From: an uncultured Bacteroidia bacterium
GTDB lineage: Bacteria > Bacteroidota > Bacteroidia > Bacteroidales > UBA932
Length of the DNA: 52,388 bases
Reading direction: 5' to 3'
Assembly: GCA_902779765.1 (NCBI GenBank)
Contig: CACZCQ010000012.1
Coordinates: forward strand, 1 to 52,388
A model generated the notes under the pieces. The model made no database searches and had not been told where the DNA came from. It was given only the letters and a program-made list of their open reading frames with translations. Each line of letters begins with the position of its first letter. The stretch's first letter is position 1. The translations under genes and the position numbers were made by a program. This document shows positions 85 through 47,977 of the stretch, piece by piece.

Positions 85-1500
85 TTACTTGCCGATGCAG
101 AACCTCTCGAATATCTGCCCCAAGACTTCATCGGGAGTTACTTCTCCGGTGATTGAGCCGAGGTGGGCGAGGGCATCCCTCAGGTCTTCGGCGAGGAGGT
201 CAGGAGTGAGGCCGTGGGCGACTGATGAGCGGACCTTTTCAAGGGCTGATGCCGCCTTCCGAAGCGCCTCATAATGTCTGAAATTTGTTACGATTGAATG
301 GTCAGAATCCAAAGTAATGTCTTTCTGGGACAAAACAAGCTGCTTTTTCAGCAAATCGAGCCCCGATCCGTCTTTTGCTGAAATATATAACTTAATTACC
401 TTTGAATTAGTAGAAGAAACATTATTGTTTAATAGTATAACATTTGTGTTAGGGGCGATTATATCCACTTTGTTGAACAAGACCATCAGGAACTGCTCGG
501 CGGGATCTATCTTTGAGACGATATCATTTATTATAGTCTCATTTGCCTCGGCCGAGTCGGTGGAATCAAGGACGGCGAGGACGATCTGAGCCTCTGACAG
601 TATCTTCAGCGAGCGGGAAATTCCTATTTTTTCAATCTCATCTTCAGACTCCCGGAGTCCGGCCGTGTCGATGAATCTGAACAATATCCCGTCAACCGTC
701 ATCGTTTCTTCGACAGTGTCCCGGGTGGTGCCGGGGATGTCGGACACGATAGCCCTGTCATCACCGAGCAAGGAATTCAGGAGGGTGCTCTTTCCAGCGT
801 TCACTGCTCCGACTATCGCAACAGGTACTCCGTTTCGGATCGCGTTTCCCTGGCTGAACGAAGAGGCCAGTGATGTGATATGGTTCAATACCTCATCGAG
901 AAGTGCTGACAACTTACCCCTGTCGGCAAACTCGACATCCTCTTCAGAGAAGTCAAGTTCCAGTTCGAGCAATGAGGTGATCTCAAGAAGACGCTTGCGG
1001 ATTTCCTTCAGTTCGGAGGAGAAACCACCTCGGAGCTGGTTCATCGCCACCTTAAGCGATGCTGAACTTGAAGATGAAATAACATCTGCAACAGCTTCTG
1101 CCTGAGCAAGGTCCATCTTCCCATTAACGAATGCCCTGCGTGTGAACTCGCCTGGTTCAGCCATCCTGGCACCGGCATCGCAGAGCAGGCGGAGGATCTC
1201 TGAAGCAACGAATGACGAAGCGTGGCATGAGATCTCCACCGAATCTTCACCGGTGTAGGAATGAGGGGCCTTGAACACACTGGCAAGTACCTCGTCCACA
1301 ATTGAATCGTCTTCTCCGTAAACTATTCCGTATCTGACTGAATTAGCATCGCTTGACTCAAGCGACTTGGATTTACACTTCACTACCTTTCCGGCAACCG
1401 CCAAGGCTTCTGGTCCGCTTATCCTTATAACGGTTATGGCGCCTGTTCCCGGGATGGTCGCAGGGGCGGCGATAGTGTCATCGAATGAGGTATAGCCCAT
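85..1500 (-). CDS. mnmE: tRNA modification GTPase MnmE (TrmE)
   Basis: MnmE works with MnmG to install the (carboxymethyl)aminomethyl group on wobble U34 of certain tRNAs. The 471-residue protein has the full family layout: an N-terminal tetrahydrofolate-binding domain (it begins MGYTSFDDTIAAPATIPGTG), a helical domain, and an inserted G domain at about residues 220-390. The G domain shows P-loop GAVNAGKS (V where most members have P), DIPGTTRD, DTAGLRE and NKVD. The protein ends in CIGK, whose Cys is the invariant MnmE C-terminal cysteine. It is transcribed away from carA, from a -7-like box TAATTTCG (minus strand, 1527-1520) with TTTTG 20 nt upstream. That gives a leader of about 14 nt. Length and termini are normal for the family. 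Confidence 0.97.
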   Translation of the reverse strand: MGYTSFDDTIAAPATIPGTGAITVIRISGPEALAVAGKVVKCKSKSLESSDANSVRYGIVYGEDDSIVDEVLASVFKAPHSYTGEDSVEISCHASSFVASEILRLLCDAGARMAEPGEFTRRAFVNGKMDLAQAEAVADVISSSSSASLKVAMNQLRGGFSSELKEIRKRLLEITSLLELELDFSEEDVEFADRGKLSALLDEVLNHITSLASSFSQGNAIRNGVPVAIVGAVNAGKSTLLNSLLGDDRAIVSDIPGTTRDTVEETMTVDGILFRFIDTAGLRESEDEIEKIGISRSLKILSEAQIVLAVLDSTDSAEANETIINDIVSKIDPAEQFLMVLFNKVDIIAPNTNVILLNNNVSSTNSKVIKLYISAKDGSGLDLLKKQLVLSQKDITLDSDHSIVTNFRHYEALRKAASALEKVRSSVAHGLTPDLLAEDLRDALAHLGSITGEVTPDEVLGQIFERFCIGK

Positions 1501-7979: not shown

Positions 7980-8012
7980 CAAATATACCATTTAATATGT
8001 AAAAAAACAAAA
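7980..8012 (-). promoter_or_regulatory. rho promoter
   Basis: On the minus strand TTTTG (8012-8008) is followed after 20 nt by TATATTTG (7987-7980), a full match to the Bacteroidota consensus in both boxes and spacing. The predicted start near 7974 gives a 26-nt leader. This is one of the best promoter matches in the window. Confidence 0.7.
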
Positions 8013-39113: not shown

Positions 39114-40520
39114 CTATTTAAGCCTCAGTGCGCAGACATTCTCTACATGCTGGGTGTGCGGGAACATGTCGACAGGCTGGACGGCAGTGATCTCGTATTT
39201 CCCGCAGAGGATTGCCAGGTCGCGGGCCTGTGACGCAGGATTGCAGCTGACGTATACGATGCGGGAAGGGAAGGCCTCGAGGATGACCTTGGCGACATCA
39301 GGATGGATACCCGCCCTGGGGGGATCGAGGATGATGACATCCGGCCGCCCGTGCTTCCTGATGAATGAATCGACCAGGACATCCTTCATGTCACCTGCGT
39401 AGAACTCGCAGTTGGTTATTCCGTTGGCTGCGGCGTTAACCTTCGCATCTTCGATAGCCTCCGGGACGTACTCGATGCCGATTACCTTCGATGCTTTCCG
39501 GGACACGAACTGGGCGATTGTTCCAGTGCCTGTATACAAGTCGTAGACGATCTCGTTTCCAGTGAGGTCCGCAAAGTCCCTAGCCACTGAATAGAGCTTC
39601 AGCGCCTGGCCGGAATTGGTTTGGTAGAACGACTTCGCTCCGATTCGGAAGGTCAGTCCCTCCATGGTCTCGCGGATTGTCGGCTCACCCTTGTAAAGGA
39701 TGCATTCCTGATCTCCGATTGAATCGTTTAACTTACTGTTAATTACGTAATAAAGCGATGTTATCTGTGGGAATTCTTGAGATATTGCATCAAGCATCGC
39801 CTCACGGACTTCGCGGTCCTCATAGAAGAAGCACATGATCACCATCAGGTCACCGGTCTCGGTGGTCCGTACGAACATGTTCCTGATGAAGCCCACATTC
39901 TCCCTGATGTCGAAGAACTGCAGTCCGTGGGTCACTGCATATTCCTTGCAGAAAAGACGGATTGCGTTGGAAGGATCCTTCTGAAGGAAACATTCCTTGA
40001 TATCCAGTACCTTGTCGAAAAACTTGCCGACGTGGAAGCCGAGGCCGATCCTATCCTCAGGTGGCAGCTCGTCCGGATTCTCGTCCTTGAGGAACCAGCG
40101 CTTGGAGGAATATGTGAATTCCAGCTTGTTGCGATAGTATATCGTTTTGTCTGAAGGGATTGTCGGCCTGATCTCGGGAACACTCAGGTGTCCGATACGA
40201 ACCAATTGATCTTCAACCTGTTGGCGTTTTGCTTCCAATTGGAGATGATAGGGAAGTGGCTGCCATTTGCAGCCTCCGCAGACACCGAAATGCCGGCAGA
40301 ACGGCTCGATCCTGTCCTTTGAAGGCTCCACGATACGATCTATGAAACCTTCATAATAATTGTGATGCTTCCTGGTTATCCTGATATTGACGACATCTCC
40401 CGGAACTGCGAACGGAACGAAAACGACAGCCCCGTTCCAATGTGTCAAAGCCTTGCCTTCGGCAGCGCAAGCTTCGATGGTCATGTTTTCAAGCAGGAGA
40501 TCGACTCGTTTTCTCGACAT
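39114..40520 (-). CDS. rlmD: 23S rRNA (uracil-C5)-methyltransferase, RlmD/RumA family
   Basis: A 468-residue RNA m5U methyltransferase. Residues 1-65 form a TRAM RNA-binding domain. A Cys cluster follows (C75, C81, C84 in FCRHFGVCGGC, with a fourth Cys near 175), as in the [4Fe-4S]-containing RumA group. The C-terminal Rossmann domain has YDLYTGTGTIAQF for SAM binding, LDPPRAG and the catalytic Cys in YVSCNP. These features favour RlmD over the cluster-free TrmA. The exact uracil target is inferred from family. It is 75 nt downstream of the flavodiiron gene; I found no TAnnTTTG promoter in that gap. Confidence 0.93.
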   Translation of the reverse strand: MSRKRVDLLLENMTIEACAAEGKALTHWNGAVVFVPFAVPGDVVNIRITRKHHNYYEGFIDRIVEPSKDRIEPFCRHFGVCGGCKWQPLPYHLQLEAKRQQVEDQLVRIGHLSVPEIRPTIPSDKTIYYRNKLEFTYSSKRWFLKDENPDELPPEDRIGLGFHVGKFFDKVLDIKECFLQKDPSNAIRLFCKEYAVTHGLQFFDIRENVGFIRNMFVRTTETGDLMVIMCFFYEDREVREAMLDAISQEFPQITSLYYVINSKLNDSIGDQECILYKGEPTIRETMEGLTFRIGAKSFYQTNSGQALKLYSVARDFADLTGNEIVYDLYTGTGTIAQFVSRKASKVIGIEYVPEAIEDAKVNAAANGITNCEFYAGDMKDVLVDSFIRKHGRPDVIILDPPRAGIHPDVAKVILEAFPSRIVYVSCNPASQARDLAILCGKYEITAVQPVDMFPHTQHVENVCALRLK

Positions 40521-41917: not shown

Positions 41918-43234
41918 ATGTCCCTGAACGACCCCAAAACTGCTACAAGTGCCATGCTCCCCCCTCTGCCGGAGAGGATGAGGCCCCGTGACCTGTCCGG
42001 ATATGTAGGTCAGAAGCACCTTGTCGGCGAGGGTTGCATACTCCGGAACATGATCAACAGCGGGAACCTCAGTTCCTTCATCCTCTGGGGTCCTCCCGGG
42101 GTCGGAAAGACTACTCTCGCCGGTATAATAGCATCCACACTTAACCGGGATTTCTATACTTTGTCCGCAGTCAGCGCCGGGGTCAAGGATGTCCGCGAAG
42201 TCATAGACCGTGCAAAGGGTCGATCGGTGTTCTCGCAGGGCAGTTCTCCCATCCTTTTCATCGATGAGATCCACCGGTTCAGCAAGTCACAGCAGGATGC
42301 GCTTCTAGGGGCCGTGGAAAACGGGACTATAGTACTCATAGGCGCTACCACGGAGAACCCTTCTTTCGAAGTTATCACTCCCCTTCTGTCACGGTGCCAG
42401 GTTTTCGTTCTGAAATCCCTGGAGGTCGAGGATTTGCAGATCCTGCTGGACAAGGCCCTCACGACCGATGTACTCCTCAAGGAAAAGGACATACGGATCA
42501 AGGAGAATGAAGCCCTGTTCAGATACAGCGGAGGAGATGCTAGGAAGCTGCTCAACGTCCTGGAGATCGTGGTTGATTCCTTCGCAGGGACGGACGAACC
42601 AATAGTCATAGACAACAAGAGGGTGACCGACTGCATACAGGAAAACCTCGCGATCTACGACAAGGACGGAGAGATGCACTACGACATCATATCCGCCTTC
42701 ATAAAGTCCATCAGGGGGTCTGATCCCAATGCGGCCGTCTACTATCTGGCCCGTATGCTCGATGGAGGTGAAGACCCCTTGTTCATAGCAAGGCGCCTGT
42801 GCCTGTCGGCCTCGGAAGATGTCGGGCTTGCGAATCCGAACGCCCTCCTGCTGGCCAATGCCTGCTTCCAGGTAGTGCATCAGATAGGTATGCCGGAGGC
42901 CAGGATTCCGCTTGCAGAAGTAACCGTCTATCTTGCAAGCTCTCCTAAAAGTAACGCTTCCTATTTAGCTGTAGAAAAGGCACTTGCAAAAGTAAAGGAA
43001 GATCGCACCAAGGCAGTCCCCCTATATCTCAGGAATGCACCGACAAAGCTGATGGAAGACCTTGGGTATTCTGACGGATACAAGTATGCCCACGATTATC
43101 CCGGCCACTTCGTCGACTTGGAATTCATGCCGAAGGGGCTCGAAGGCACGGTTTTCTATGAACCGGCTCCGAACCCCCACGAAGATAGGCTCAAGGCTTA
43201 TCTGAAGGCCTGTTGGCCTAAATATTACGTCTAA
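41918..43234 (+). CDS. rarA: Replication-associated recombination protein RarA (MgsA)
   Basis: RarA is an AAA+ ATPase of the clamp-loader clade that acts at stalled replication forks. The 438-residue protein has the N-terminal MRPRDLSGYVGQKHLVG motif, Walker A GPPGVGKTT, Walker B ILFIDEIHRFSKSQQD, sensor 1 IGATTENPSFE, a sensor 2 region (GGDARKLLNVLE) and the C-terminal tetramerisation domain (YHYAHDYPGHF region, here YKYAHDYPGHFV). Length is normal. It is divergent from the flavodiiron gene and its stop is interleaved with that of the cysteate synthase gene (CTAA, 43231-43234). Confidence 0.96.
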   Translation: MSLNDPKTATSAMLPPLPERMRPRDLSGYVGQKHLVGEGCILRNMINSGNLSSFILWGPPGVGKTTLAGIIASTLNRDFYTLSAVSAGVKDVREVIDRAKGRSVFSQGSSPILFIDEIHRFSKSQQDALLGAVENGTIVLIGATTENPSFEVITPLLSRCQVFVLKSLEVEDLQILLDKALTTDVLLKEKDIRIKENEALFRYSGGDARKLLNVLEIVVDSFAGTDEPIVIDNKRVTDCIQENLAIYDKDGEMHYDIISAFIKSIRGSDPNAAVYYLARMLDGGEDPLFIARRLCLSASEDVGLANPNALLLANACFQVVHQIGMPEARIPLAEVTVYLASSPKSNASYLAVEKALAKVKEDRTKAVPLYLRNAPTKLMEDLGYSDGYKYAHDYPGHFVDLEFMPKGLEGTVFYEPAPNPHEDRLKAYLKACWPKYYV

Positions 43235-44514
43235 AAGAGTTTTTCGACCGAGGAGATGACTTCCTCGGCTGAGAGCTCGGTGCTCAGCACCAGGTCAGGC
43301 TTCTTGAGCTCGAATCCCCTGCTGGTGGCATTGAGCATTCCGGCCCCGGTAATATTCAGCATCACCGTCTCGTCATTCTTGACAGTACCCTCGTCAAGGG
43401 CCTTCTTGAGTGCTGCCACAGCCGATGCCGCGGCAGGGAAAATGTCATAACCCTCCTTGTTGTAGAACTGGAGCATCCAGTAGACGATCTCGTCGTTAGT
43501 AACCTTGTAGAAGTCGCCTCCGGAAGCCGTAAGGACATCGTGGAGACCTCCGGCCAGGTTGTATGGCGGTTTCCTGTTGGAAAGCACCTTTGCCAGTATA
43601 ATCTCCGCGTTCTTTCTGGACACCTCAGCATCGATGGGAACAAGGTCTCCCTTGCCTGACTTCCAGGAATCATACATAAGGGTATACGGGGCGTTCTGTA
43701 CGCAGTAAACCCTCATTTCATTCCTCCCGAAACGGCCGTCTTTCTCAAGCCTGCAGGCATTCTCCCAAGCAGCGATCGCACCGGTACCGCTTCCAACTGC
43801 CTGGAAATAAGCATCGGGAATCCTTCCGATGACTTCAACTGCGCTCAGGATGGTAGTACCCATACCGTCCCTGCGCGCGACATTCTTGGCTCCTCCTTCC
43901 GCGAGGTAACGAGGGTCCTTGCAGAGTTTCTCTCCCAATGCTATGGCATCGTAGTAGTCGGTTCCGTGAGGAGTGGCTATGACCTTTACGCAAGGTTTGA
44001 GTTTCCTTGTGAACCAAAGGTCGGAGACATTGTCATTGGGTATGCAGATCACTATCGGGATGTCATTGTCCGAACAGACTCTGGCGAATGCCCTCGCAGT
44101 ATTGCCTGCGGACTGGACGACCAGGATCTTCTTGCTGTTCTTGGGAAGCCTTGCGCAGACCGAGAATGCCTCGGTCTCCTTGAAGGAGCAAGTCTCCATC
44201 TTCGCTCCCCTCTTGGGAACATATCCGGACAGGGTGATATACAGGTTGTCCATTCCGAGAAGGTCGGAGAGTCCCTTGCTCTTATAGGTCACAGGGGCAT
44301 GTGATTTTCGGAGTGTCCTCTTGATAGGAAGCCACTCGGCATATCTGTACAGGCCTTTCAGGTCATCCCTGGGAGTGAACCTTTCATTGGAATACACGGC
44401 CCTGACCAAAGAAGGAGCCGGTGCCTGGGGGTCTACAAGGGTCCATCCGGCATCTTCGAAGATACGTCCGGTACCCACATCCATTAGTTGATAATCTGTT
44501 GGTTGGAATTTCAT
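43231..44514 (-). CDS. Cysteate synthase (threonine synthase-like PLP enzyme)
   Basis: Cysteate synthase makes L-cysteate from O-phospho-L-serine and sulfite. The 427-residue fold-type II PLP enzyme resembles threonine synthase but carries the segments I recall from cysteate synthases: EWLPIKR..., PVTYKSKGLSDLLGMDNLYI, LSGYVPKRGAKMETCSFKE with the PLP Lys K112, QSAGNTARAFA, EGGAKNVARRDGMGT, YFQAVGSGTGAIAAWE and NRKPPYNLAGGLHD. Threonine synthases have a GPTxAFKD-type Lys motif, absent here. The archaeal coenzyme M enzyme has an N-terminal CxxC pair that is missing here. In Bacteroidota cysteate feeds capnine and sulfonolipids. It is last in a unit with an acyltransferase and a Ca/Na antiporter. 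Many pipelines would label it thrC; that remains the main alternative. Confidence 0.82.
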   Translation of the reverse strand: MKFQPTDYQLMDVGTGRIFEDAGWTLVDPQAPAPSLVRAVYSNERFTPRDDLKGLYRYAEWLPIKRTLRKSHAPVTYKSKGLSDLLGMDNLYITLSGYVPKRGAKMETCSFKETEAFSVCARLPKNSKKILVVQSAGNTARAFARVCSDNDIPIVICIPNDNVSDLWFTRKLKPCVKVIATPHGTDYYDAIALGEKLCKDPRYLAEGGAKNVARRDGMGTTILSAVEVIGRIPDAYFQAVGSGTGAIAAWENACRLEKDGRFGRNEMRVYCVQNAPYTLMYDSWKSGKGDLVPIDAEVSRKNAEIILAKVLSNRKPPYNLAGGLHDVLTASGGDFYKVTNDEIVYWMLQFYNKEGYDIFPAAASAVAALKKALDEGTVKNDETVMLNITGAGMLNATSRGFELKKPDLVLSTELSAEEVISSVEKLF

Positions 44515-44526
44515 ATGGATAGATGT

Positions 44527-45486
44527 TTAAATACTCAGGATCAGGTATGCCATGTAGGCGATGAATACAATAAGGAAGGATGTCGCATCCACTCTGCCGA
44601 TTTTGTTGTTCCTGCCCGTCCAGGAACTGAACAGGAGCGCCAGAGAACTCAGTACCAGTACACCGAGGTCCACCGGTTTGATATTGGCGAATGACAGCGG
44701 GCAGGCAAGGGCTGAGGATCCCAGGATCAGGAGGATGTTGGATATGTTGGAGCCGATGATGTTGCCGAGGGCAAGGGCTCCCTTCTTCTTTGCGGCAGCC
44801 ACGACGCAGGTCACCAGTTCAGGGAAAGATGTCCCGCCAGCAAGGATCGTGATGGCAATGAACTTCTCCGACAGACCGGAATTCCGTGCTATCCGGCAAG
44901 CCGAATCCACCAGGATGTCGCCTCCGAATATCAAGGCAGCCATTCCGACCACTACCATAAGGATCGAAATCCAAAGCTTCCTGGCCGTTTCGGACTGCCC
45001 GTCCCCGTCATCGGTTTTCCCTCCCTTGATGGAGAAGATCAGGTAGGTTATGAACAGGAGCAGGAATACTCCGCCTTCCCACGCATTTATGGTGTCGCTT
45101 CCACCCAGGCCGAACAACGTGTGCTGCATACCGAAACAGATCAGCAGCAGGCAGGCTGCGATGTTGAGGGGGATGTCCCTTCTCTTGTTGCCGTCAGAGA
45201 TCGCCACCGGCCTAATCAAGGCGGTGACTCCCAGGATCAGGAATACATTGAATATGTTGGAACCGACCACATTGCCGATGGCGATGTCCGCGCTTCCCAT
45301 CAAGGCGCCGGTCAGGCTTACGACGAGTTCCGGCAGGGACGTACCGATTCCGACGATGGTCATTCCTATCAGGAACTCACTGAGCCCGGCTCTCCTGGCA
45401 ATGGACGATGAGCCGTCCACAAGCCACTCCGCCCCGAAGATCAGCAGGGCAAGACCGGCCAGGAGGATCAGGATATCAACGATCAT
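44527..45486 (-). CDS. Calcium/sodium antiporter (CaCA family, YrbG-like)
   Basis: A 319-residue inner-membrane cation exchanger expected to move Ca2+ against Na+ (or K+/H+). It has about ten hydrophobic segments in two inverted halves, each with the alpha-repeat signature: GIGTSLPELVVSLTGA in the first half and AGGTSFPELVTCVVAA in the second, with ion-binding Glu in each PEL. GNVVGSNIFNVFLILG and GNIIGSNISNILLILG complete the repeats. It lies 1 nt after the acyltransferase gene and 12 nt before the cysteate synthase gene, so the three are surely co-transcribed. Why an antiporter sits there is unclear. Confidence 0.93.
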   Translation of the reverse strand: MIVDILILLAGLALLIFGAEWLVDGSSSIARRAGLSEFLIGMTIVGIGTSLPELVVSLTGALMGSADIAIGNVVGSNIFNVFLILGVTALIRPVAISDGNKRRDIPLNIAACLLLICFGMQHTLFGLGGSDTINAWEGGVFLLLFITYLIFSIKGGKTDDGDGQSETARKLWISILMVVVGMAALIFGGDILVDSACRIARNSGLSEKFIAITILAGGTSFPELVTCVVAAAKKKGALALGNIIGSNISNILLILGSSALACPLSFANIKPVDLGVLVLSSLALLFSSWTGRNNKIGRVDATSFLIVFIAYMAYLILSI

Positions 45487-45487
45487 T

Positions 45488-46660
45488 TCAGTCCTGTCTT
45501 AGAGGTTCTCCTGAGGCAAGGCGCTCCTTGGAAAGTACAGGATTTGAATATATGCGGAAGAAAATGTCCCGGAGTTCATCACGGTCCAGTCTCTTCTCTA
45601 CCTTGTCGAGCCTGTGCTCGGTATAATCCAAGAATTTCTGTACGTCTTCCTTGTCGTAGAGGTCTCCGTACTTGCTGCACTTCTCCACCAGGTCATAGGC
45701 GATGTAGTTGGTTTTCCAGAGATGGTAACCGGCGATGACCCTCTTGTCAACCGCATGACGGATGGACTGGTACCGGTCGTTCTTGTCGCACTTACTGGCC
45801 ATCTCGATCTCATCGAAGGTAAGGGGAAGACCGAAATTAAGATGGACGTTGCCTTTCTGCTGGCGTATACCCATCACGATGCTGTGCATGTCCTCGTAAT
45901 GGGTCTTGACGTACTTCTTGGTACGGGAGATCAGGATTTCGCGGGCCTTGCGGATATCGCAGGGCTCATATTCATATGAAATGCTGAGAGGGACGATGTT
46001 CAGTTCCATGAAATTCTCCTGGAAAGACTTCTCTCCGCTCATGTCCAGCATCTTGAGGAGTCCCTGCTCCGTCGTGTCGATGCCGTCCTTGGTCCTTCCC
46101 TGCCTCTGGGCGAGCCAGATGGAAGCCTTGCCGGAGGTGATTGTCTGGCGGATATATCTGGAAAGAAGCTGCGATGACAGGTAAAGATCCCTGGCGGAAA
46201 TACCGCGGATCACCTTGATCATCCTGTTGGAGCGGAGGAGGTACTCTACGGTCTTGCTCTGCTTGATGAGATTGTCCCCGACACAGATTTCCGTCATCGG
46301 GACATCGTTCCTGAAGAAAACCATCTGGGTGATGGCAGGGTCCAGGATTATATCCCTGTGATTGGACATCGCCAGGAACTTGCCTTTGATTCCCTTGATA
46401 TAGCTGATGCCGTCGTAAGAGAAATTATGGACGGTGTGGTCGATACACCAGGAGACGGCGTCATTCATGACCACTTCCTGGAATTCATCGATGCTCTTCA
46501 CGGATTTGAGGGCAGAGCGCAGATACGTGGCTGGCTTGTCCGGAAAAAGATATTCCGAGATAGCCAGGACAGCCGGATGATTGGCCACCTTGTTAAGGGC
46601 CTTTACAGCTTCTTCGTCGCTGTATGGGGATATGCTTTCAAATTCGGATGAATCCAACAT
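45488..46660 (-). CDS. PlsC-like acyltransferase with H-x5-D motif
   Basis: A 390-residue protein of the glycerolipid-acyltransferase (LPLAT) superfamily. The frame is open to a TTG at 46687, but that codon falls in the -7 box; the ATG at 46660 gives a 19-nt leader. The catalytic block reads SNHRDIILDP (H101, D107), which spaces His and Asp by five residues, whereas PlsC enzymes have H-x4-D. Later blocks include KASIWLAQRQGRTKDG, matching the FPEGTRSR-like block III, and NIVPLSISYEYEPCD like block IV. The N-terminal 75 residues and the C-terminal 120 extend beyond PlsC. Similar long acyltransferases occur widely in Bacteroidota; the acceptor is unknown. A lysophospholipid, or an amino-lipid made from cysteate, are both possible. 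Confidence 0.82.
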   Translation of the reverse strand: MLDSSEFESISPYSDEEAVKALNKVANHPAVLAISEYLFPDKPATYLRSALKSVKSIDEFQEVVMNDAVSWCIDHTVHNFSYDGISYIKGIKGKFLAMSNHRDIILDPAITQMVFFRNDVPMTEICVGDNLIKQSKTVEYLLRSNRMIKVIRGISARDLYLSSQLLSRYIRQTITSGKASIWLAQRQGRTKDGIDTTEQGLLKMLDMSGEKSFQENFMELNIVPLSISYEYEPCDIRKAREILISRTKKYVKTHYEDMHSIVMGIRQQKGNVHLNFGLPLTFDEIEMASKCDKNDRYQSIRHAVDKRVIAGYHLWKTNYIAYDLVEKCSKYGDLYDKEDVQKFLDYTEHRLDKVEKRLDRDELRDIFFRIYSNPVLSKERLASGEPLRQD

Positions 46661-46684
46661 AATGTTCGCATTTTGTCTGAAAGA

Positions 46685-46716
46685 CAAATGTAATCAAATT
46701 AACCGCCAATAGCAAA
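46685..46716 (-). promoter_or_regulatory. Promoter of the acyltransferase-antiporter-cysteate synthase unit
   Basis: Minus strand TTTTG (46716-46713), 20 nt, TACATTTG (46692-46685): full consensus boxes and spacing. It overlaps the last codons of queA (stop at 46699). Start predicted near 46679, leader 19 nt. Confidence 0.65.
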
Positions 46717-47925
46717 ATCGTGACGGAAAAGTAGAGAACTGTCGCCATAGCTCAGGAACCTGAAATCATGGCCGAGGGCATAGTCGTAGATCGTCCGCCA
46801 GTCACCTCCAACGAATGCGGAGATAAGCAGGATGAGGGTACTCTCAGGCTGGTGGAAGTTAGTTACGAGTATGTCCACGAGACGGAACCTGAAGCCGGGG
46901 ACGATGATTATCCGAGTTCCCGCCTTGAGTTCATCAAGACGGTTGGCATCGAGGTAATCGAGGATGGCGCCAAGTGATTCTTCAACCGAATATGGATATT
47001 CCCTTTCATAAGGAGCCCATTGGGAGACGTCCTCGGGATGTCCGTTTTCAATGCAGCTGACACCGATGTAGTAGAGAGATTCAAGGGTCCTGACCGATGT
47101 GGTTCCCACGGCGATCAGCTTGCCCGTCCTGTTCCTGAGCTTCTCGATAAGGGCTCGTGAAACCACGAACGGCTCCCTGTGCATCGGATGCTCGGAGACA
47201 TCGGGACTCTTGACGGGAAGGAAGGTGCCCGCTCCAACGTGGAGGCAGACTTCAGCTGTTTCTATCCCTTTGTTACGGATTCCCTCCAGGACCCTTTCGG
47301 TGAAATGAAGCCCGGCGGTCGGTGCAGCAACAGAGCCCCGTATCTTGGCATATAGGGTCTGGTAACGCTCGGAATCGATCGCTTCGGTATCCCTGTTCAG
47401 ATATGGAGGTATCGGAATCGTACCGCAGATCTCAAGCACCTGCGAAAAGGGAAAGCCTCCTTTCCAGGATAATTCGACAGTACCAGTCTGTCCATCCCTC
47501 TCGACCAAGCTGGCTGACAGGTCCATGGACGCTACGGTCCGGTCATTTTCCGGATTGGAGAGATGAAGGATATCCCCTTTCCATCGCTTTGCATTGCCGA
47601 TCACGCATTTCCATGTACAATGGCCGGTCTGGGCGAACGACAGGTTGTATTCACAGGGCTGCACGGGCTCAAGACAGAATATCTCGATATGCGCACCTGA
47701 TTCGCGTTCGAAATGCAGCCTCGCCGGGACTACCTTTGTATCGTTGAAGACCATGAGGGATCCGGCCGGGAGCAGCTCAGGGAGATTCCTGAATATGAAC
47801 TCGTCTACATTTCCGTCAAGGTATCTCAACAACTTCGACGAGTCTCGCTCCGGGAGAGGGTATTTCGCAATCCTGTCCTCGTCGAGTTCGTATTTGTAAT
47901 CGTCTATTCTTATCGAAGGTATCAT
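46699..47925 (-). CDS. queA: S-adenosylmethionine:tRNA ribosyltransferase-isomerase QueA
   Basis: QueA transfers and isomerises the ribosyl moiety of SAM to make epoxyqueuosine in tRNA. The 408-residue protein has the family signatures YELDEDRIAKYPLPERDSSKLL (start region), MVFNDTKVVPARL, VAAPTAGLHFTERVL and HVGAGTFLPVKSPDVSEHPMH, and ends with the FHQPESTLILLISAFVGG block and YRFLSYGDSSLL-like tail (DFRFLSYGDSSLLF). It is slightly longer than E. coli QueA (356 aa), as is usual in Bacteroidota. It has a strong promoter at 47947-47977 with a 16-nt leader. Confidence 0.97.
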   Translation of the reverse strand: MIPSIRIDDYKYELDEDRIAKYPLPERDSSKLLRYLDGNVDEFIFRNLPELLPAGSLMVFNDTKVVPARLHFERESGAHIEIFCLEPVQPCEYNLSFAQTGHCTWKCVIGNAKRWKGDILHLSNPENDRTVASMDLSASLVERDGQTGTVELSWKGGFPFSQVLEICGTIPIPPYLNRDTEAIDSERYQTLYAKIRGSVAAPTAGLHFTERVLEGIRNKGIETAEVCLHVGAGTFLPVKSPDVSEHPMHREPFVVSRALIEKLRNRTGKLIAVGTTSVRTLESLYYIGVSCIENGHPEDVSQWAPYEREYPYSVEESLGAILDYLDANRLDELKAGTRIIIVPGFRFRLVDILVTNFHQPESTLILLISAFVGGDWRTIYDYALGHDFRFLSYGDSSLLFRHDFAIGG

Positions 47926-47946: not shown

Positions 47947-47977
47947 CAAAGTTAAGCTATCGGGAGGGAATTTCAAA
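47947..47977 (-). promoter_or_regulatory. queA promoter
   Basis: Minus strand TTTG (47977-47974), 19 nt, TAACTTTG (47954-47947): full match to the Bacteroidota consensus. Start predicted near 47941, leader 16 nt. Confidence 0.65.

Follow-up and report, generated by a model that had tools for sequence, protein, structure and literature searches.

Sulfonolipids, a class of membrane lipids, are built from cysteate, which supplies their sulfur. Enzymes of the cysteate synthase family form cysteate from O-phosphoserine and sulfite. In Methanosarcina cysteate is used in coenzyme M synthesis. According to PMC10191378, Alistipes and Odoribacter carry a cysteate synthase of this archaeal type (TIGR03844) in place of CapA. 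For SulA/CapB, the cysteate acyl-ACP transferase of Alistipes finegoldii, PMC9304779 gives the residue numbers Lys251 and Lys281.

We analyzed a window of 52,388 nucleotides (the whole stretch of DNA under study) from an uncultured Bacteroidia bacterium of the ruminant gut. The window encodes an archaeal-type cysteate synthase like that of gut Bacteroidota; the host here is probably Candidatus Cryptobacteroides, and the gene neighbors are different. The preliminary description of this DNA had suggested a Rikenellaceae-like host. This suggestion finds no support here: among 64 related loci the only one named to genus is Candidatus Cryptobacteroides, which NCBI lists under Bacteroidales incertae sedis. 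In our reading, which we hold to be very probable, the gene encodes the cysteate synthase of a capnine pathway and was brought by a rearrangement behind an acyltransferase that is a mere bystander, as is the antiporter lying between them.

Locus organization and transcription

The following features were assigned in the window:

39114..40520, minus strand, rlmD, 23S rRNA methyltransferase (TIGR00479 338.5 bits, over 183.55)
41918..43234, plus strand, AAA ATPase open reading frame, convergent to the synthase
43231..44514, minus strand, cysteate synthase, 427 aa, PLP fold type II (TIGR03844; CSFKE lysine motif)
44527..45486, minus strand, calcium/sodium antiporter, 319 aa (TIGR00367 227.8 bits, over 179.65)
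45488..46660, minus strand, acyltransferase of predicted GPAT fold, 390 aa, ATG at 46660 (predicted fold and motif)
46685..46716, minus strand, promoter TTTG-N20-TAnnTTTG (exact match; -33 box in the end of queA, -7 box intergenic)
46699..47925, minus strand, queA (NF001140 334 bits, over 324)

All three genes of the unit lie on the minus strand, with 1 nt between acyltransferase and antiporter and 12 nt between antiporter and synthase; the coordinates of the ORFs thus bear out the arrangement described before. The stop codon of the synthase shares 4 nt with the ORF on the plus strand, which we take to be an MgsA-type AAA ATPase and which is convergent behind the synthase in many, though not all, loci of the window's order.

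The preliminary description also gave the unit a promoter of its own. The exact TTTG-N20-TAnnTTTG match upstream of the acyltransferase is one of 4 such sites within the window (0.20 expected), a number reached in 1 of 100 shuffles. In 38 of 46 relatives, against 2.6 expected from base shuffling, a TAnnTTTG -7 box occurs in the 60 nt before the start of the acyltransferase (picked in relatives by a script near the match). The box precedes the antiporter in 11 of 56 relatives and the synthase in 1 of 59; for loci sharing the window's gene order both numbers are 0 of 16. Being common before the acyltransferase and absent before the other two genes in these loci, the box supports a single transcript of acyltransferase, antiporter and synthase, which in the window's clade is probably formed. 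Both the promoter and the likely co-transcription proposed earlier are in keeping with these data.

Identity of the synthase

The 427-aa protein scores 423.6 bits against TIGR03844 (cut-off 324.9) and 49.4 bits against the thrC model (cut-off 167.1). All thrC models stay far below their cut-off, and the top threonine synthase score, 67 bits for PRK08197, compares with a cut-off of 303. The solved cysteate synthase 9k3c is matched over the full length (485.5 bits), and the catalytic-lysine, glycine-loop and substrate-loop motifs are 9k3c-like: CSFKE, SAGNTA, ARRDGM and GSGTGAIAAWE are common to both proteins, the PLP lysine and active-site stretches reading TCSFKETEAFSVCAR, SAGNTARAFA and GSGTGAIAAWE. 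By model scores the last gene looks like a genuine cysteate synthase gene, as had been proposed.

The protein might nevertheless be a threonine synthase, or a bifunctional stand-in for a missing one, since the host genome contains a homoserine dehydrogenase yet no threonine synthase above the model cut-off. The distribution of thrC in the genus speaks against this. Of the 15 good genomes in the genus that have no cysteate synthase gene, 14 lack thrC as well, whereas 23 of the 48 good genomes carrying the synthase have a separate thrC. In some relatives, moreover, the synthase gene is clustered with the gene of a cysteate acyltransferase. The presence of the latter enzyme in the host and the 14 synthase-less genomes that also lack thrC make substitution unlikely, and together with the model scores they led us to reject the threonine synthase reading, which we regard as extremely improbable. 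The preliminary description had named, as evidence against a cysteate synthase, a genome without cysteate acyltransferase and without another threonine synthase. Only the second half of this applies, as the cysteate acyltransferase is present.

A predicted capnine pathway in the host genome

Three alpha-oxoamine synthase matches were found in the host genome, one of which keeps both Lys251 and Lys281 of SulA. This protein scores 580.6 bits to 7u7h and 536.3 bits to 28eh, which carries the name cysteate-C-fatty acyltransferase, versus 214.7 bits to serine palmitoyltransferase. A separate serine palmitoyltransferase of the same genome has alanine where the SulA signature lysine, Lys281, stands. 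The search for a cysteate acyltransferase recommended earlier was hence successful. Its gene is located on another contig than the synthase, between gyrB and a short-chain reductase gene that begins 1 nt after it (PRK06181 292.8 bits, over 215). A. finegoldii, too, has its reductase genes apart from cfat and cys (PMC11211663). The SDR-type enzyme encoded next to the cysteate acyltransferase is a putative 3-ketocapnine reductase, the enzyme that had been sought. With the SulA/CapB-type enzyme and the adjacent reductase in one genome, the capnine-base pathway appears complete in outline, judged by sequence.

For co-occurrence in the genus, the synthase counts omit G015, whose hit is a fragment of 24 residues, and G147, with 25% identity. 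Cysteate acyltransferase counts leave out matches poorer than about 1e-100 (serine palmitoyltransferase, Kbl); G304 was counted as present (two fragments, best E 5e-100). Among 63 good genomes 47 contain both synthase and cysteate acyltransferase, 1 the synthase alone, 3 the cysteate acyltransferase alone and 12 neither (p 2e-9, phylogeny being ignored in this and the other co-occurrence tests). Across all 151 genomes of the genus the corresponding numbers are 94, 6, 11 and 40. In some relatives the synthase gene is adjacent to or clustered with that of the cysteate acyltransferase, in part also with the reductase. At the level of the order we considered 198 Bacteroidales and dropped synthase hits weaker than E 1e-60. 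Here 4 of 52 synthase-bearing genomes miss a strong cysteate acyltransferase match, and 93 of 141 genomes with cysteate acyltransferase show no match to a TIGR03844-type synthase.

A second, distant PLP enzyme was seen in 14 of 14 loci that had been picked because a weak match lay close to the cysteate acyltransferase.

Cysteate could also serve something other than sulfonolipid, as it does in coenzyme M synthesis. Of 14 control genomes, a set that includes Methanosarcina, 1 gives a TIGR03844 match above the cut-off. However, the host genome possesses both cysteate acyltransferase and reductase, and 94 of 100 synthase-bearing genomes of the genus have the former, so that we give this use of cysteate hardly any credence and retain the capnine pathway.

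Gene order among relatives

We compared synteny by tblastn. The loci come from overlapping sets, since 6 of 27 further stretches share synthase DNA with one of the 64 loci, and the 82 rows of the tree represent 81 different sequences. The three-gene order is confined to one clade within one genus (17 rows, plus 1 row whose contig stops before the acyltransferase), and this clade is nested in a convergent order (SH-aLRT 85 in a quick tree). In most other relatives the acyltransferase is convergent with the synthase. In 62 of 82 rows the gene immediately preceding the synthase is the antiporter, and in 31 of 64 loci rlmD and antiporter are both upstream of the synthase; rlmD precedes the antiporter-synthase pair in many relatives and stands apart from both genes in the window's order. 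The conservation of the three-gene order among sulfonolipid producers that was to be looked for was not seen, and a dedicated three-gene sulfonolipid operon was rejected as a conserved unit.

The frequent pairing of antiporter and synthase would fit a functional envelope module of all three genes, for example one that balances the cations of an anionic sulfonolipid membrane. Yet antiporter and acyltransferase stay together where the synthase is missing, and the clusters of synthase and cysteate acyltransferase in L042, L050, L056 and L062 contain no antiporter match; we think such a module very unlikely. Informative in this respect are the 9 good genomes in which the acyltransferase is present while synthase and cysteate acyltransferase are both missing. 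All 9 keep queA, the usual upstream partner of the acyltransferase in this genus, immediately before it; the antiporter is no more than 1.1 kb away in 8 of them and at a distance of 4.2 kb in the ninth. Gene order is thus not lost with the pathway, and acyltransferase and antiporter look like ordinary neighbors of the synthase, not parts of a sulfonolipid operon.

The acyltransferase

A longer reading frame of the acyltransferase begins at TTG 46687. Because conservation begins at ATG 46660 and the TTG falls inside the -7 box, the start is probably the ATG, giving 390 aa. No Pfam acyltransferase model was reported at a limit of E = 1 (of matches above about 0.1, most are removed by the HMMER filters), and Pfam and PDB sequence searches returned nothing informative. 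Foldseek aligned the AlphaFold model (pLDDT 83.8) with human GPAT1 at E 1.3e-7 and with squash GPAT at E 1.8e-5. The match to 8e4y has E 1.3e-7, probability 1.00 and a TM-score of 0.55 (query length) or 0.36 (target length), with an rmsd of 14.6 over the entire alignment. The predicted fold and a recognizable NH..D block resemble human GPAT1 and the squash plastid GPAT, in agreement with a GPAT/LPLAT fold, although identity is 13–14%, the TM-score at most 0.55 and the motif spacing different. HX4D is the catalytic motif of PlsC/LPLAT-type acyltransferases; in 32 aligned sequences the invariant residues are H110, D112 and D116, an HX5D spacing. Since no Pfam acyltransferase model was reported, the earlier term "PlsC-like" is carried by motif and predicted fold.

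The acyltransferase might be the missing capnine N-acyltransferase that makes sulfonolipid, perhaps acting on sphinganine too, as a serine palmitoyltransferase is also encoded in the host genome. In its favor are the predicted fold, the probable co-transcription with the synthase in the window's clade and a distance of no more than 8 kb to the synthase in 62 of the 92 genomes having both. Acyltransferase counts omit paralogues of about 37–41% identity (G063, G085, G116, G125, G132, G135), weak best hits (G084, G165, G170) and, at the order level, G336 (E 6e-4). Inside the genus it tracks the synthase, occurring in 47 of 48 good genomes with and 10 of 15 without it (p 0.002), which probably reflects synteny shared by ancestry. 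Across the 198 Bacteroidales no such link is seen (21 of 52 with synthase, 77 of 146 without), and the association with cysteate acyltransferase is negative: 58 of 141 genomes with this enzyme have an acyltransferase match and 83 do not, versus 40 of 57 that have one without it. In addition, the closest folds are those of O-acylating glycerol-3-phosphate acyltransferases, and outside the genus the gene follows a PaaK-like ligase gene in 7 of 18 loci. These order-wide profiles and the synteny kept in pathway-less genomes make a role as capnine N-acyltransferase very unlikely. We are equally doubtful of the narrower version, in which the HX5D enzyme N-acylates capnine (perhaps sphinganine as well), at least in the genus, and the rearrangement was retained for coupling the first step of sulfonolipid synthesis to the last. 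The preliminary proposal that acyltransferase and antiporter are sulfonolipid genes is not upheld.

Discussion

In the pathway that we favor, the archaeal/gut-Bacteroidota-type synthase would use O-phosphoserine and sulfite to form cysteate, the SulA/CapB-type enzyme, whose gene adjoins gyrB, would condense it with an acyl thioester, and the neighboring short-chain reductase would convert the condensation product to capnine, activities that we infer from gene identity. In a sub-clade of the genus the antiporter-synthase pair would have moved from rlmD to directly behind queA and the acyltransferase. Because of this new position the synthase would be read from the acyltransferase promoter, while acyltransferase and antiporter would belong to the locus independently of the synthase, outside the pathway.

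The locus illustrates a hazard, as co-transcription in a single genome can be an accident of rearrangement, and an attractive candidate for the capnine N-acyltransferase is now unlikely. The cysteate source of Bacteroidales without the synthase becomes directly testable, given how many have cysteate acyltransferase and show no such synthase. In the literature searched no paper joined the genus name Candidatus Cryptobacteroides with "sulfonolipid". With the present analysis this probable host, a species-rich genus of Bacteroidales from herbivore guts, joins the predicted sulfonolipid makers.

Gene organization and promoter

The preliminary description had proposed a likely sulfonolipid unit of three genes, separated by 1 and 12 nt and read from a consensus promoter of their own. 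The spacing is borne out by the coordinates, and the promoter match is exact:

46716–46685, minus strand: promoter TTTG-N20-TAnnTTTG, exact consensus match
46660 (ATG) to 45488, minus strand: acyltransferase next to queA, from ORF and conservation
45486–44527, minus strand: calcium/sodium antiporter, 1 nt after the acyltransferase
44514–43231, minus strand: cysteate synthase (427 aa), 12 nt after the antiporter

The acyltransferase should start at the ATG at 46660, not at the TTG at 46687. In 38 of 46 relatives a -7 box is present no more than 60 nt 5' of the acyltransferase (2.6 expected), and among the 16 loci having the window's gene order none was found 5' of the antiporter or of the synthase. 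Its absence before these two genes favours reading all three as one transcript. Further exact matches to the Bacteroidota-type promoter consensus occur in the window at 374–404 (plus strand), 7980–8011 (minus strand) and 47947–47977 (minus strand), the last immediately upstream of queA.

Identity of the synthase

The synthase scores 423.6 bits on TIGR03844 (cut-off 324.9; in a control set of 14 genomes 12 gave some signal and one exceeded the cut-off), and every threonine synthase model scored far under its own cut-off. The solved cysteate synthase 9k3c matches over the full length (485.5 bits) and shares its motifs. By model scores the gene was rightly called a cysteate synthase rather than a threonine synthase. 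According to the accessible text of PMC10191378, the archaeal-type synthase is used by gut Alistipes and Odoribacter.

In the window's genome homoserine dehydrogenase is over the cut-off and no threonine synthase (thrC) is. Across 151 genomes of the genus searched, many of them incomplete, threonine synthase exceeded the cut-off in 50 and in 101, the window's own included, it did not. Of 63 good genomes of the genus (completeness of 90% or more, contamination of 5% or less), thrC is present in 23 of 48 with cysteate synthase and is also missing in 14 of 15 without it. Given this distribution, cysteate synthase does not appear to replace threonine synthase. Three relatives' genomes (G012, G119, G141) each carry two synthase copies; in G012 one lies in the antiporter context and the other in an Hdr context.

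The remaining predicted capnine pathway

The accessible text of PMC11211663 outlines a four-step path whose synthase, acyltransferase and reductases have been identified, calls the enzymes still largely unknown, and reports that the A. finegoldii reductases do not cluster with cfat and cys. Three alpha-oxoamine synthase matches were found in the window's genome, which is 97.75% complete at 2.48 Mb in 31 contigs. The first is presumably Kbl-like, judging in part by its neighbourhood, and adjoins a presumably Tdh-like gene; the second, a serine palmitoyltransferase, scores 512.5 bits against 8guh. The third, with 580.6 bits to 7u7h and 536.3 bits to 28eh, named cysteate-C-fatty acyltransferase, is the cysteate acyltransferase for which a genome search had been proposed. 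It has lysines at 251 and 281, the same numbers as Lys251 and Lys281 of SulA, the latter marking the difference from serine palmitoyltransferase in the accessible text of PMC9304779. A 273-aa short-chain reductase starts 1 nt past it (PRK06181, 292.8 bits, cut-off 215) and is a natural candidate for the 3-ketocapnine reductase.

Elsewhere in the genus these genes stand together: G003 has the order VOC, cysteate acyltransferase, reductase, synthase and PF03601 (YeiH-like) membrane protein, and G033 has cysteate acyltransferase, reductase, four Hdr-like genes and synthase. The PF03601 gene lies 3' of the synthase cluster in one relative's locus (L042:9499–10866, plus strand), likewise in L056 and L062; such proteins are annotated as putative sulfate exporters. 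A gene for a glyoxalase/VOC-domain protein recurs in the surroundings of the cysteate acyltransferase (L042:5065–6147; also L056, L062, L204, L211, L212, L217 and L220–L222). Hdr-like genes are found 5' of the synthase (L050, L053, L055, L061, L164, L165, L167–L170, L173) or 3' of a second PLP enzyme (L211–L214). Three subunits, all from L061, were scanned; two have a CCG domain and one a flavoprotein domain. The Hdr-like genes, which thus recur around sulfonolipid genes, perhaps have a role in sulfite or sulfur redox.

Co-occurrence and the role of the acyltransferase

Synthase and cysteate acyltransferase occur together in 47 of the 63 good genomes of the genus; one has the synthase alone, three have the cysteate acyltransferase alone and 12 lack both. 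For synthase and neighbouring acyltransferase, 47 genomes likewise hold the two, one holds the synthase alone, ten hold the acyltransferase alone and five lack both. Like all co-occurrence tests here, genus or order, these counts take no account of phylogeny. Among 198 genomes of the order, the neighbouring acyltransferase is present in 21 of 52 with the synthase versus 77 of 146 without (p 0.15), and in 58 of 141 with the cysteate acyltransferase versus 40 of 57 without (p 0.0003). In the same genomes synthase and cysteate acyltransferase are both present in 48, synthase only in 4, cysteate acyltransferase only in 93 and neither in 53.

Nine of the 63 good genomes hold the acyltransferase with neither pathway gene. 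All nine keep the queA-acyltransferase pair with the antiporter nearby, at a distance of no more than 1.1 kb in eight of them and of 4.2 kb in the ninth. In a quick acyltransferase tree eight of the nine cluster inside synthase-bearing lineages, in a cluster that also holds one long-branch synthase-bearing row, and one stands apart. This nesting is easier to reconcile with the synthase having been lost than with its never having been present, although the direction is tentative.

No Pfam acyltransferase match was reported up to E 1. A structure model built from 32 sequences (pLDDT 83.8), GPAT-like in its fold, matched human GPAT1 at E 1.3e-7, with TM 0.55 by query and 0.36 by target and an rmsd of 14.6 across the entire alignment, and squash GPAT at E 1.8e-5 and 1.7e-4; no other structure matched under 0.001. 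His110, Asp112 and Asp116 are invariant (motif HX5D), and NHRDI..D is found in 18 of 19 order-sample loci, L092 being the one where none was found. In 7 of 18 loci from other genera (L075–L092) a ligase, presumably PaaK-like, lies upstream of the gene, and outside the genus this ligase and presumably Crt-like FAD oxidoreductases often accompany it (L074–L091).

The suggestion that this gene N-acylates capnine is not upheld, since it stays with queA in all nine pathway-less genomes and has no order-level link to the synthase; it is unlikely to be a sulfonolipid gene. No capnine N-acyltransferase gene is named in the accessible text of PMC10191378, nor did one turn up in that of PMC11211663, PMC9304779 and PMC12927429 or in a search of mainly open-access literature.

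Synteny in relatives

The synteny sample comprised 27 stretches and 64 loci, six pairs being identical DNA. The antiporter lies immediately 5' of the synthase in 51 of the 64 loci, and rlmD and antiporter both lie 5' in 31. In 32 loci the acyltransferase lies 3' of the synthase in convergent orientation, and in 21 it is tandem upstream, in 18 of these immediately before the antiporter; in 11 it was not found, frequently because the contig ends. A typical order is rlmD, antiporter, synthase and sometimes an MscS-type channel, with acyltransferase and queA following in convergent orientation. Of 92 genomes with synthase and acyltransferase, 68 have them on the same contig. In 62 they are no more than 8 kb apart, 34 of these pairs being convergent, 23 tandem with the acyltransferase first and 5 tandem with it second. 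Seventeen of 82 tree rows share the window's order (queA, acyltransferase, antiporter, synthase); they form one group (SH-aLRT 85, including one further row whose contig stops short of the acyltransferase) nested within the convergent type.

A second PLP enzyme

In 14 of 14 Bacteroidales stretches with a cysteate acyltransferase and no TIGR03844-type hit (L209–L222), picked for a weak match nearby on the contig, a second, distantly related PLP fold-type II enzyme lies 0.04–9 kb from the cysteate acyltransferase, in 11 on its strand; it was found near that gene in none of six stretches picked without such a match. These enzymes are 37–59% identical to that of G147, a genome of the window's genus with the order cysteate acyltransferase, second PLP enzyme, reductase, VOC. 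TIGR03844 and PRK08197 give the G147 enzyme 127.1 and 154.5 bits, both below cut-off, and in a tree of the two types alone this lineage groups apart from the window's synthase type. It is a candidate alternative cysteate synthase, possibly of the published CapA type or else of a third type.

L204:1938–3158, plus strand: second PLP enzyme
L215:4895–5635, minus strand: PAPS reductase domain (PF01507) gene, between cysteate acyltransferase and second PLP enzyme
L219:4552–5259, plus strand: PAPS reductase domain (PF01507) gene, between the same two genes

In two of six loci with ORFs listed, a PF01507 gene (163.7 and 164 bits) lies directly 3' of the cysteate acyltransferase and 5' of the second PLP enzyme. 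The product of PAPS reductase is sulfite, and the arrangement suggests a dedicated sulfite supply for cysteate.

Host lineage

Many of the 64 related loci are labelled with ruminant or other herbivore gut sites. Only one was assigned to a genus, Candidatus Cryptobacteroides faecihippi (82% identity), placed by NCBI in Bacteroidales incertae sedis. This lone match makes Candidatus Cryptobacteroides the probable host genus, in place of the Rikenellaceae-like host first supposed. Judged from its genes, the window's genome probably has a complete capnine-base pathway, and on sequence grounds the synthase is a real cysteate synthase, an ordinary one of a kind already known, in a little-described host lineage.
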